Origin: Erythrobacter sp.
Lineage (GTDB): Bacteria > Pseudomonadota > Alphaproteobacteria > Sphingomonadales > Sphingomonadaceae
NCBI GenBank assembly: GCA_009993605.1
Contig: JAACTB010000008.1
Coordinates: 62,001-126,000, forward strand
Length of the DNA stretch: 64,000 nucleotides
Direction of reading: 5' to 3'
Shown here: positions 25,162 through 29,509 of the stretch, in pieces
How the letters are laid out: each line of letters opens with the position of its first letter
How positions within the stretch are numbered: position 1 is the stretch's first letter
Translations under genes and position numbers: made by a program
Notes under the pieces: model-generated
The model's input: the letters and a program-made list of their open reading frames with translations, nothing else
Database searches by the model: none
Told to the model about the DNA's origin: nothing

Positions 25162-26389
25162 GTTCCTGTATGTCATCGCCGTCCTGATTGTGCTGGTGAT
25201 CCTCGGCGCGATCGCGCTCTCGATATGGTCGCGGCAGGCGACCGAAATCGCCTTCGTCCCGCGCGGCGAGTTCGTGGAGCAGGAACCGCTCGCCGAAAAC
25301 GCCTATCAGGACCCGGCGATGTGGTATTCGCGCCCCGGTCTCGGCACGGACGATCCCGCGCGCTATCAACCCGCCCTCGCGCCGGAGCCGGAAAATTCGG
25401 CGAGCGAAACGCCTTCTCCGCAGGCGCCCGCCGCCGAACGCGGCCTCGGCACGTCAGCTCCGGTGCTGGAGCCCGAGACCAGCCGCCGGGCCAATCCGGT
25501 CGAGGCGGAGGACATCCCCGATTTCGCAGTCTTCTTCGTTCCGCCCACCAGCTATATCCAGGCCGGGGGCGATTGGAACGCCTCGCTCGACGACGGGCTG
25601 ACCGACACCCGCGCGCGCCTGTTCCTGCGCGGCATGGCGAGCGCGTTCAATCGCGCCGACGAGATCTGGGCGCCGCGCTATCGCCAGGCAGCGGTCGGCG
25701 CGTTCCTGACCGACCGGCCCGAAGCGGTGCTGGCGATCGACGCGGCCTATGCCGATGTGCGCGATGCCTTTCGCTATTTCCTCGACAGCGTCGATCCCGA
25801 AAAGCCCATCGTCCTTGCAGGGCACAGCCAGGGTTCGCTCCACGTCCTGCGCCTGCTGATGGACGAAGTGCGCGGCACGCCCGCCGCCGACCGGATCGCC
25901 GCCGTCTATGCGCCCGGATGGCCGATCTCGGTCGATCACGATCTGCCCGAACTGCCCTTTCCCGCCTGCGCCGCCTCGGGCCAGATGCAATGCATCCTGT
26001 CGTGGTCGAGCTTTGCCGATGGGGGCGATCCCGATTTCATCATGCGCCGCTATTCGACGACGCCCGGTTTCGACGGCCAGCCGCGCGGCGAAGGCCCGAT
26101 CCTGTGCGTCAATCCGTTGACGGGCGGCACGGGCGGATCGGCCCCCGCATCGCGCAATCTCGGCACGCTGGTGCCGGACGAGACGATGACGCGCGCCGAT
26201 CTGGTCCCCGCGGCCGTACCGGCGCGCTGCGACGAGCGCGGCCTGCTCCTGATCGGCGATCCGCCGCGCATGGGCGAAGGCGTGCTGCCGGGCGACAATT
26301 ACCACGTCTACGACATCCCGCTGTTTTGGGCGAATGTGCAGCAGGACGTGGTGGAACGGGTGCGAGCATGGACCGGCCAGCGCTCGTAA
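25151..26389 (+). CDS. DUF3089 family protein (alpha/beta hydrolase-like)
   Basis: A 412-residue protein with an N-terminal membrane anchor (KFLYVIAVLIVLVILGAIALSI), a Pro/Ala-rich stretch and a DUF3089 domain. The domain has the nucleophile-elbow sequence VLAGHSQGSLHVLRLL and a late DNYHVYDIPLFWANVQQDVVERV, like many lipase-type folds. The substrate is unknown; a periplasmic esterase-like role is inferred. The start is GTG 25151, overlapping the permease stop; in-frame sequence upstream does not look like protein. Its end overlaps ruvX by 22 bases. Confidence 0.8.
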   Translation: MARKFLYVIAVLIVLVILGAIALSIWSRQATEIAFVPRGEFVEQEPLAENAYQDPAMWYSRPGLGTDDPARYQPALAPEPENSASETPSPQAPAAERGLGTSAPVLEPETSRRANPVEAEDIPDFAVFFVPPTSYIQAGGDWNASLDDGLTDTRARLFLRGMASAFNRADEIWAPRYRQAAVGAFLTDRPEAVLAIDAAYADVRDAFRYFLDSVDPEKPIVLAGHSQGSLHVLRLLMDEVRGTPAADRIAAVYAPGWPISVDHDLPELPFPACAASGQMQCILSWSSFADGGDPDFIMRRYSTTPGFDGQPRGEGPILCVNPLTGGTGGSAPASRNLGTLVPDETMTRADLVPAAVPARCDERGLLLIGDPPRMGEGVLPGDNYHVYDIPLFWANVQQDVVERVRAWTGQRS

Positions 26390-26853
26390 CCGATTTCGCG
26401 CGCGATTTCGGCAATGCGCTGCCCGATGGCGGCACTTTGCTGGGCCTCGATCTCGGGACCAAGACCGTCGGGATCGCCACCTGCGATGCGGGCTGGCGCT
26501 ATGCGACGCCGGGCAAGACCCTCCCCCGCGGCAAGTTCACCAAGGATTGCGGCAAGCTGCGCGAGATCGTCGCCGAGCGTTCCGTGACCGGTATCGTGAT
26601 CGGATTGCCGCGCAATATGGACGGCAGCGAAGGCCCCCGCGCCCAGGCGAGCCGCGCCTATGCGAAGAATCTGGCGGCGGCGCTCGAACTACCGGTGCTG
26701 CTGTGGGACGAACGCTGGTCCACCGCCAGCGCCGAAGCCGCCCTGATCGGTCAGGATATGAGCCGCGCCAAGCGCGCGACGCGGATCGACAGCCATGCAG
26801 CGGCGGTCATCCTGCAAGGCGCGATCGATAGCCTGGCGGGCAGCGCGTTCTGA
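26368..26853 (+). CDS. ruvX: Holliday junction resolvase-like RuvX/YqgF
   Basis: A 161-residue RNase H-fold protein. LLGLDLGTKTVGIATCD contains the first catalytic Asp, VTGIVIGLPRNMDGSEG the Glu region and DSHAAAVILQGAID the final Asp. The family processes the 5' end of 16S rRNA precursor. The ATG is inside the end of the DUF3089 gene and is the last gene of the pyrE operon. Three bases separate its stop from the convergent stop at 26857. Confidence 0.93.
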   Translation: MDRPALVTDFARDFGNALPDGGTLLGLDLGTKTVGIATCDAGWRYATPGKTLPRGKFTKDCGKLREIVAERSVTGIVIGLPRNMDGSEGPRAQASRAYAKNLAAALELPVLLWDERWSTASAEAALIGQDMSRAKRATRIDSHAAAVILQGAIDSLAGSAF

Positions 26854-26856
26854 CGC

Positions 26857-27762
26857 TTAACGGTGGCGCTGTGCCGCCTCGATCTCTGCGCGGCGAAGGC
26901 TCGCTTCTCGTGCAACCAGCCGGTTGCCCGACTTCTCCGCTTCACGCCACAGCGCGTCGGCACCCGCCGCATCGGCGAGCATCGCCCGCGCCTCGAAGCT
27001 TGCCAGTCGCATCCGGTCGCTCGGGTGGTGGCGTCCGAAATGGTCGGCGAGACCGCATGCCTCCTCCCCGCCAAGCCCCACTGCGCAGCGCAGGAAGGTC
27101 TCGCTCGATGTCGGGTTGAGCACGTGACTTACGGTCCCGTGCTCCAGATCGAATCCGTATTGGTCGCACCATGCCTGCGCCGGATCGATCTTCAGGATGT
27201 TGAGGGAAACCGACATCGTTTCAGGCGGCAATTGCGAATGCACGTCGCGATGGGCGCGATAGAGCAGCGTCTTTCCCTCCGACAGTGCACTGCGCTCGAC
27301 GAAGCGAAGTCCTGCCTGTTCTCCACGCCAGCCGGTGACCGCCTCGTAATCGTATTCGTAATAGTCGCTTACATAGCCAGGGCCGAAATAACCCACGGTG
27401 AGGAAATCGAAATTGTGGTCGTGCGGCGCGCCATAGACGAAATGTGCCGCGCCGCTGCTCTTTAGGCAGGTGTCGCGCTCGCTCGGCCAGATATTGGCGC
27501 GCAGGAACCAGTCTCCGCGCGGCGGAGACAGGACGATCGCCTGCGGACCGTAGCCGCTCTGCGGGGAAGCCGCCCTGCCCGCCAGCATATCGAGCAGCAG
27601 ATCGCCCAGAAATCGGTGATCATTGGCGAGCCTCTGCAACGCGCGGGCGGCGCGGTCGACGCTGTCCTCGTCATGCGGATCGAAGCCGATGCGGTGCAGT
27701 TCGCCGATCGTTTCCTCGAGCGAGGCGGACCGTGTCTCGTCGCTGGCGATCAGGCGGGGCAC
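26857..27762 (-). CDS. Cupin-like protein of the peptide cassette (301 residues)
   Basis: I do not recognise a named family. Residues 35-65 are helical (ALQRLANDHRFLGDLLLDML). Residues about 80-195 look like a cupin/jelly-roll: PHDHNFDFLTVGYFGPG with His114 and His116, a Glu at 156, and YRAHRDVHSQLPPETMSVSLNIL with His171 and His175, enough for a metal site. The last 90 residues are helical and HEAT-like (SDRMRLASFEARAMLADAAG). The GTG at 27762 overlaps the end of the upstream gene by 13 bases. The C-terminal helices resemble those of the upstream 328-residue protein, so the two may be distant paralogues. It may act on the small peptide encoded at the head of the unit. Confidence 0.7.
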   Translation of the reverse strand: MPRLIASDETRSASLEETIGELHRIGFDPHDEDSVDRAARALQRLANDHRFLGDLLLDMLAGRAASPQSGYGPQAIVLSPPRGDWFLRANIWPSERDTCLKSSGAAHFVYGAPHDHNFDFLTVGYFGPGYVSDYYEYDYEAVTGWRGEQAGLRFVERSALSEGKTLLYRAHRDVHSQLPPETMSVSLNILKIDPAQAWCDQYGFDLEHGTVSHVLNPTSSETFLRCAVGLGGEEACGLADHFGRHHPSDRMRLASFEARAMLADAAGADALWREAEKSGNRLVAREASLRRAEIEAAQRHR

Positions 27763-28736
27763 GGTTCGGGCCCCAGTCGCGCGAGCTGTTCGTGGCGGGC
27801 GAGCAGGTGATCCTGCAATTGCCGAGCGGGTTCTTGAAGAGCATCGCTCCCGTCTTCCGCAATCGCACAAAGCTGCGCAAATCCGCAGGCCGTGTCGAGA
27901 GCGAGCGTGGCTCGAAGCGCCTGCCAGCGTAGATGGTCGCTACGTTCCGACCGCGTGATTGTGGTCAGCACCGTCGCGGCATCCCTCCTTCCCATGCGCG
28001 CCAAGAGGGCGATGGCGATCTCCTCGCGGCTCTCCTCCCGGTCGCCGCTGGCGCGGTGGATCAGAGCGCCATCGGCGATCCGGTATTCGTGCGATGGCGC
28101 AGGTTTTACGGCCTCCCTCGTAAGGCGCAGGATGACCACCCGGCCTGCGATCGTATCGAGCCGCTTGGTGCGATCCCCGCCCAGCCTCAGGGCCACGCCG
28201 CGTCGCAGATAGAGAGGTTCCGAAGCGATCCGCGCCGCTCCGTCAGCCAGCTCGTTCAGCGCAAACAGGCGCCCGCTCGCCGCGCCCGCAAGACACAGTT
28301 CGTACCGCTCCCCATCCGCAAAGGCGATGGTGCCCGCCTGATCCGTCGCCGACGCCGCTTCGTAGAGGACCAGCGACAGGGAAGCGCCCCCGCTGGCTGC
28401 CAATTGCACCAATCCGCTGCCATGCGAATAGTGATGGCGAAACGGTATCTGGCCGAGCGGGCGCTCCAATTGGCACTCGACCATCGCGGAAACGAGCGGC
28501 GCGATCAGCGCGTCGCCGGTGCAGGCGCAGTGCAGTGCCCTTGCAAGGGCATTGCATCGGTCCAGCTCCTCGCCCGCGCCAAAGCGGTCGAGATCTGCGA
28601 GCAGCGGGCGCGCCGCCCCGTCCCGCCAATGCTGCCGCGCGCATTCGAGATCGCGCTGCGCGGATCGCTGGGCCGCGCTGTCGCGCCGCCATTCGGCGAT
28701 AGCGGGATCGATCCGCACCGCGCTGCCTCGTTTCAA
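27750..28736 (-). CDS. Second cupin/HEAT-like protein of the cassette (328 residues)
   Basis: An unassigned 328-residue protein. An acidic and basic helical N-terminus (residues 15-90) is followed by an all-beta-like region (about 95-210: HHYSHGSGLVQLAASGG, RVVILRLTR) and a C-terminal HEAT-like region (245-315: ARMGRRDAATVLTT, SDHLRWQALRATLALD). Compared with its neighbour it lacks a clear HxH cupin site; the only His group is FRHHYSHG. This could be a partner or scaffold rather than a catalyst. The start is a TTG whose bases overlap the peptide gene stop (TTGA). The C-terminal segment SD..R..A..A..AL(D) is shared with the 301-residue protein. Confidence 0.65.
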   Translation of the reverse strand: MKRGSAVRIDPAIAEWRRDSAAQRSAQRDLECARQHWRDGAARPLLADLDRFGAGEELDRCNALARALHCACTGDALIAPLVSAMVECQLERPLGQIPFRHHYSHGSGLVQLAASGGASLSLVLYEAASATDQAGTIAFADGERYELCLAGAASGRLFALNELADGAARIASEPLYLRRGVALRLGGDRTKRLDTIAGRVVILRLTREAVKPAPSHEYRIADGALIHRASGDREESREEIAIALLARMGRRDAATVLTTITRSERSDHLRWQALRATLALDTACGFAQLCAIAEDGSDALQEPARQLQDHLLARHEQLARLGPEPCPA

Positions 28737-28894
28737 AAGAACGTATCGGGCGGGATCATCTCGTAGACGTAGATCATGATGACGACCGCGCGATCGTCGG
28801 TGCTGGCGCTGGCGAGGTCGGAAAGGCTGCCGAAAAGCCCGGTCACGGTGTCGAGATCGGGCAGCAGGTCGAGATCGAGAATCGGAAGTGTCAT
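28733..28894 (-). CDS. 53-residue peptide at the head of the cassette
   Basis: A small gene encoding a peptide with three parts: an acidic leader-like segment (MTLPILDLDLLPDLDTVTG), a Ser/Ala/Asp-rich middle (SLSDLASASTDD), and a hydrophobic C-terminus (RAVVIMIYVYEMIPPDTFF). It has no cysteines. It overlaps the TTG start of the 328-residue gene (TTGA) and is probably co-expressed. A purine-rich AAGGAGGGG lies about 12 bases before this ATG, longer than usual; an in-frame ATG at 28927 is an alternative that would include that site. The layout resembles a precursor peptide with two dedicated proteins, but this is inference. Confidence 0.6.
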   Translation of the reverse strand: MTLPILDLDLLPDLDTVTGLFGSLSDLASASTDDRAVVIMIYVYEMIPPDTFF

Positions 28895-29026: not shown

Positions 29027-29509
29027 ATGTCCGACCCCACTCCTCGTTTCGACCCCTCGGTCGCCGCCGATTTCCTCGTCTCGCGCGCGCATAACGGCTG
29101 GCTGGGTATGCGCTTTTCCGATCATGGCGAGGATTGGGTCGAGATGGAGCTGCCCTGGCGCGAGGATTTGCTGGGCGAAGAAGGGCGCGACGTGCTCGCC
29201 TCCGGCCCTATCGTCAGCCTGCTCGACATGGCGGGCGGGCTCTCGATCTGGACCCGGACCGGTGAGTTTCGCGGTATCGCCACACTCGACCTGCGCGTCG
29301 ATTACACCCGCCCCGCGCGCGAACGCAAATCCGTTTTCGGGCGCGTCCAGTGCTATCGCACGACCCGCTCCGCCGCCTTCGTGCGGGGGATTGCGCATGA
29401 TGGGGACCCGGACGATCCGGTGGCGCATATGCAAGCGGTCTTCATGACGATCGACAAGCGCACGGTCGATCTCCCCGCCGACAGGAAAGCGGAGCAAGCC
29501 AATGGCTGA
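29027..29509 (+). CDS. PaaI-type hotdog thioesterase, first of a pair
   Basis: A 160-residue hotdog-fold protein. The helix-forming segment GPIVSLLDMAGGLSIWTRTG replaces the common HGG...D helix, and the strand ATLDLRVDYTRPARERKSVFGRVQCYR is typical of acyl-CoA thioesterases. Usually such enzymes release CoA from aromatic or short acyl groups. The asparagine or histidine in the HGG loop of active members is absent, so activity might depend on the partner downstream. Its stop overlaps the next gene by eight bases. Confidence 0.82.
   Translation: MSDPTPRFDPSVAADFLVSRAHNGWLGMRFSDHGEDWVEMELPWREDLLGEEGRDVLASGPIVSLLDMAGGLSIWTRTGEFRGIATLDLRVDYTRPARERKSVFGRVQCYRTTRSAAFVRGIAHDGDPDDPVAHMQAVFMTIDKRTVDLPADRKAEQANG

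Follow-up and report, generated by a model that had tools for sequence, protein, structure and literature searches.

In the present study, a unit of three genes, here termed A-B-C, was examined in a window of 64,000 nucleotides from Erythrobacter sp. (assembly GCA_009993605.1, contig JAACTB010000008.1, positions 62,001 to 126,000); the window means this whole stretch, and all coordinates refer to it. The three frames are real, lie on the minus strand and are read in the order A, B, C from 28894 to 26857, a small peptide being followed by two proteins of about 300 residues, as an earlier reading made from the letters alone (the sequence-only reading) had described. We regard A, with modest confidence, as probably a precursor like those of ribosomally synthesised and post-translationally modified peptides (RiPPs), and B and C as its dedicated partners, C acting as an iron-cupin oxygenase and B as a dead-cupin partner. 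The precursor peptide with dedicated modifying or binding proteins that was first proposed is partly supported by these results. The observations carrying this reading are conservation, co-occurrence, the presence or absence of the unit, the predicted folds and an invariant set of three histidines in C.

First, the peptide is conserved in sequence. Gene A (28733..28894, minus strand, ATG start) encodes 53 residues, and among 74 unique peptides the commonest residue at a position reaches, on average, a frequency of 0.74 in residues 1-23, 0.30 in 24-31, 0.62 in 32-45 and 0.33 in 46-53. P12 and G22 are invariant (74/74), and D34 (72/74) and Y44 (71/74) are nearly so; Cys is present in 6 of the 74 peptides. 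The N-terminal block (28826..28894) reads approximately M-x-L-P-K-I-D-x-x-x-L-P-x-L-D-T-x-T-G-x-F-G-S, and the acidic-hydrophobic block of residues 32-45 (28760..28801) consists of D-D-x, a beta-branched run, Y44 and D/E45; to call the former leader-like and the latter core-like is an interpretive reading. Pooled over 21 hand-chosen pairs, in which locus L102 is represented by its larger B piece only, the ratio of nonsynonymous to synonymous change (pN/pS) is 0.22 for A, 0.32 for B and 0.19 for C, and the value for A indicates purifying selection. The four peptides of L107-L110 (Parasphingopyxis, Sphingosinicella, Sphingomonas), which were excluded from the residue frequencies, retain a similar N-terminal motif, but their C-terminus is of a different type and contains GG and Cys. 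The conserved peptide C-terminus expected beforehand is found as block 32-45 in the window's clade, but distant loci retain at most the N-terminal motif, and their acidic-hydrophobic block is replaced.

Second, A accompanies C. An A-type peptide lies upstream of C in all 78 loci that reach that far; two further loci, L065 and L105, begin inside C. These 80 loci are the best 80 of 87 relatives found through C in the genome collection, and their record titles name genera that we take to belong to the Sphingomonadales, or unspecific proteobacterial bins. Among the 78 peptides, those of L108-L110 were assigned by eye, those of L103 and L107 have weak tblastn E values (4e-3 and 9e-3), and that of L090 is a frame with no ATG, GTG or TTG start. 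In a set of 99 relatives, C was found in 39, all within the 60 genomes of the same genus (the window's own included), and a profile of A alone, the one search able to reveal A without C, matched 40 genomes once each, namely the 39 with C and one further genome, G002. The test set beforehand, that the peptide frame should be kept wherever both proteins are, was thus passed in 78/78 loci, and in the 99 genomes by the 39 shared genomes and one relic. A as a chance or non-coding frame was rejected on this co-occurrence and on pN/pS; the sequence is conserved, beyond the frame. The relic, G002 (L169 6617-7442), is a decaying unit that retains an intact A frame, whereas residues 131-273 of B were not found and C was detected only over residues 269-296.

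Third, the unit mostly comes and goes as a whole. Seventeen of the 21 same-genus genomes without C were examined (G012, G023, G028 and G041 were excluded as fragmented, incomplete or more contaminated), and 13 of them have an empty site, with the RuvX and thioesterase genes within about 300 nt of each other. One of the remaining four is G002; for the other three (G004, G046 and G057), the stretch retrieved does not contain the thioesterase gene, and in G057 a weak match to B covers 39 residues (E 0.008). Shared presence and empty sites thus indicate that A, B and C mostly occur, or are mostly missing, as one set. Around the 80 loci, the RuvX-side gene is kept in 65; on the other side, 51 loci have a thioesterase-like gene and 29 have a siroheme-synthase-like one. 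With flanks of this kind, a mobile cassette is unsupported in the window's clade.

Fourth, both proteins are predicted cupins. Confident structure models give C (26857..27762, 301 residues) and B (27750..28718) the cysteine/thiol-dioxygenase fold, with helical, HEAT-like tails; in B these helices are predicted from secondary structure at 27774..28040 (residues 233-321 counted from the upstream TTG). For C, the jelly roll with a histidine cluster that had been anticipated is borne out as a predicted cupin with an invariant three-His set and a helical tail. H114 and H116 (in the H114-D115-H116 motif, 27415..27423) and H175 (27238..27240) are present in 83/83 C proteins, a set made up of the window's own C, those from 72 of the 80 loci retained by a full-length filter and ten distant members, with partial or broken copies excluded. 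The five-residue metal site originally suggested holds for these three positions, but E156 (72/83) and H171 (71/83) are not invariant. From these residues, we infer that C binds iron through H114, H116 and H175. No invariant His was found across 33 aligned rows of B, which agrees with the view that B lacks the site; as a correction to the sequence-only reading, the B model too is a cupin, of related fold. By sequence, a C-versus-B profile comparison finds the tail only (probability 8.4, E 0.004), and the apparent kinship of C and B rests on fold comparison.

Neither protein could be placed in a named family, as had been reported: A, B and C of the window have no Pfam or NCBIfam match, and annotation relying on such models would therefore leave all three unnamed. 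For C, no Pfam family matches at E values up to 10, hence not DUF692 either, and the CDO (cysteine dioxygenase) family is absent among the Pfam matches of 33 and of 15 C-family members at E up to 1. HEAT_2 matches 17/33 B relatives at E up to 1 (best 2.2e-10; 5.2e-9, above the cut-off, for the B of L137), and the B family qualifies as having HEAT-repeat helices; 2/33 C relatives match it (best 0.0047). A PDB sequence search with C returned no cupin, just chance and helical-repeat matches, and the search with B returned none. A Cas11 small subunit was also considered for B (PADLOC E 0.0086, 14 bits, residues 253-315 only) and was taken as a chance match.

Genomes outside the clade were also sampled. 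C was found in 5/385 genomes of a class sample (four in the window's own family), in 15/398 of a phylum sample (thirteen in that family) and, using distant profiles, in 2/369 genomes of the class of G590 and 6/99 of the family of G754; three C queries returned the same two named plasmid records, from Alteromonas and Vibrio. Loci in which MacAB-type exporters stand with small hydrophobic peptides are of a bacteriocin-like kind, and three distant loci resemble them in lying beside HlyD, MacB and ABC genes. On the Alteromonas stellipolaris plasmid CP013927 (L137 9761-17929), the order is a Yip1-domain gene, HlyD, ABC ATPase, MacB, two small hydrophobic peptides, B, C, ABC ATPase and ABC-2 permease, with a helix-turn-helix gene opposite; this cluster contains two ABC-type exporter sets, and all but one of its annotated genes are labelled 'hypothetical'. 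L196 holds HlyD, ABC ATPase, MacB, three peptides, B and C, and its peptides share an alike N-terminus and have two kinds of C-terminus, which by eye resemble the two Alteromonas peptides. In L197, B and C have HlyD, MacB and ABC genes in their vicinity but no clear peptide, and L130 has an RND pump and an HlyD gene upstream. In the window's clade, the unit does not lie beside such exporter genes, and ten of the tested peptides have no Pfam or NCBIfam match at the cut-off. In 12 of 18 longer distant regions, a V/I-rich small open reading frame stands beside B and is equalled by at most 2.5% of the background small frames of the same region, in an uncorrected test taking the best of up to five frames per locus; the case of L138 is doubted.

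Several side observations were made among these members. Genome G835 (L131, L132) has two A-B-C units whose peptides are quite different and whose C copies have diverged to unequal degrees. Shorter B-C pairs that follow a small acidic peptide lacking a hydrophobic end are alike in L198 6710-10900, where the pair is doubled, and L200 2601-4248, the two genomes being of the same genus. In one distant genome, B and C are preceded, at a distance of about 0.5 kb, by a Cupin_8 gene (L201 6573-7520, E 4.4e-41). On the plasmid of Vibrio sp. ED002 (L138 11282-12702), shortened B-like and C-like genes have a recombinase gene and a transposase of the Tn3 family as neighbours; restriction-modification genes lie on both sides, and no clear peptide is seen.

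Herein, we propose a mechanism to describe how the three products might act. A would be made ribosomally as a precursor peptide, and its residues 1-23 would be recognised by B or C, the acidic-hydrophobic C-terminal block being the part acted on. C, as a thiol-dioxygenase-type cupin, would hold one iron through H114, H116 and H175 and would oxidise the bound peptide, most likely by placing oxygen onto a side chain in the hydrophobic block. B, a ligand-free cupin of the same fold, would pair with C and hold or deliver the peptide, which may later be trimmed or released. A RiPP-like system is suggested by the N-terminus that is kept while C-termini change, by the several peptides per B-C pair and by the exporters of the distant loci.

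Several results weigh against a RiPP-like precursor. Both blocks of A are conserved in the window's clade (0.74 and 0.62), unlike many RiPP cores. The occurrence of the unit is patchy, C being missing in 21/60 same-genus genomes and in 39/39 genomes from other families within the order. No dedicated protease or exporter adjoins A-B-C in the window, and the recognised members of the 25 largest flanking clusters of the 80 loci, judged by eye, form two housekeeping neighbourhoods, Peptidase_S26 and an AI-2E transporter included. Six of the 18 distant regions (L127, L197-L201) show no conspicuous hydrophobic peptide next to B. Lastly, the Ser-x-His-x-Tyr pattern occurs in 0/83 C proteins and, with so few Cys-containing peptides, this makes thiol oxidation unlikely.

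Another explanation is compatible with the conserved C-terminal block, the single copy and the lack of a dedicated adjoining protease or exporter in the window's clade: A could belong permanently to a B-C oxygenase acting on a small molecule, as its small subunit or activator, and would be neither matured nor exported. The mostly single conserved site, with its RuvX side retained in 65/80 loci, also fits such a resident subunit. However, distant loci retain at most the N-terminal motif while the C-terminus has changed, and one B-C pair stands with three peptides (L196) or two (L137) beside exporters. We consider a resident subunit the less likely rival. That A is a hydrophobic toxin to its own cell, neutralised by B and C in a toxin-antitoxin or bacteriocin-immunity unit, is improbable. 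A short hydrophobic peptide next to two larger genes and the bacteriocin-like, exporter-bearing surroundings of L137 and L196 would suit it, but C carries an invariant His set of catalytic type, and G002 retains an intact A frame with the middle of B missing and C nearly gone, thin evidence from one relic genome. An oxygen or redox sensor, in which the oxidation of A or of a partner by C would serve as a signal, much as with plant cysteine oxidases (PCO), is very improbable, as A has no N-terminal Cys and Cys in just 6/74 peptides, the top fold matches of C are small-molecule thiol dioxygenases, and no regulator was recognised by eye among the 25 largest flanking clusters.

The favoured RiPP-like reading can be compared with two known kinds of system. 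The cysteine and thiol dioxygenases (CDO, 3-mercaptopropionate and mercaptosuccinate dioxygenases; PCO/ADO) share with C the cupin fold and the three-His set. In contrast, the present unit has a HEAT-like tail, a peptide gene and mostly Cys-free peptides, and it lacks both Ser-x-His-x-Tyr and a match to their Pfam families. Conserved Ser-His-Tyr active-site residues are described for thiol dioxygenases in PMC10966181. Membership of C among classic cysteine dioxygenases was rejected on the missing pattern and the missing CDO match; the window's genome has no CDO_I match. The RiPP iron-oxygenase systems, i.e. multinuclear non-heme iron-dependent oxidases (MNIO) with a partner, and PbsQ, are alike in that the gene for a small precursor stands next to those for an enzyme of the non-heme-iron type and a partner. 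PbsQ, a cupin-like hydroxylase of the biphenomycin-like pbs RiPP cluster, is described as a relative of a JmjC-domain protein in PMC12257519, and it is the closest peptide-modifying cupin met in the literature consulted. C differs from these enzymes in having no DUF692 match and in having CDO-type fold neighbours where PbsQ is described as JmjC-related; moreover, the partner B is itself a ligand-free cupin, and the window has no adjoining dedicated protease or exporter. The adjacency of a candidate precursor gene to its putative dedicated enzymes, as in RiPP systems, is observed here (78/78 loci; 39 genomes and one relic of 99). A precursor with dedicated enzymes is a known kind of system; the B-C enzyme pair was not found described for such a role, and no description of the A-B-C unit was found in the open-licence literature, where absence is weak evidence.

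The junctions and flanks of the unit were also examined. The 13-base overlap of C, starting at GTG, with B is real and conserved, being exactly 13 nt in 57/72 loci scored. The coupling of A and B through TTGA is present in the window, where the stop of A overlaps a TTG of B, but it is not conserved, as a 1-4 nt overlap is possible in only 1/69 scored loci. From TTG 28736, B would have 328 residues (28736-27750); codon 7 of that frame, GTG 28718, is aligned ungapped with the start codon in 65/69 loci scored. Because the start is conserved at this position, B more probably begins there, 14 nt past the A stop, with 322 residues. The placement amid housekeeping genes on the opposite strand is as first stated: outside the unit, and serving as site markers, a RuvX gene (26368..26853, plus strand, Pfam RuvX 9e-41) converges with C, and a 4HBT thioesterase gene (29027..29509, plus strand, Pfam 4HBT 2.8e-8) diverges from A. 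The RuvX gene closes a plus-strand operon with PdxJ, ACPS, Peptidase_S26, AI-2E transporter and DUF3089 genes, and two plus-strand 4HBT thioesterase genes form the other flank. The absence of a protease or transporter noted earlier holds for the direct neighbours; however, the signal peptidase (Peptidase_S26) and AI-2E transporter genes of this operon lie 1.7-3.8 kb from C and are taken as housekeeping.

We tentatively suggest that A-B-C may represent a kind of peptide-modifying system not described so far. In it, an iron cupin of thiol-dioxygenase fold with a HEAT-like tail, working with its site-less cupin relative, would oxidise the hydrophobic part of a short, mostly thiol-free peptide. 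Such chemistry would be new for the fold, and Erythrobacteraceae and related genomes would harbour a new RiPP class whose exported forms, with several peptides each, would occur elsewhere in Proteobacteria, the Alteromonas plasmid among them. If so, the question would be raised of what a thiol-dioxygenase-like site does to a mostly Cys-free peptide, and a ready test set would be provided by the dozens of A-B-C units found in nature, by sister species whose site is empty and by one relic. A new enzyme fold would then join peptide modification.
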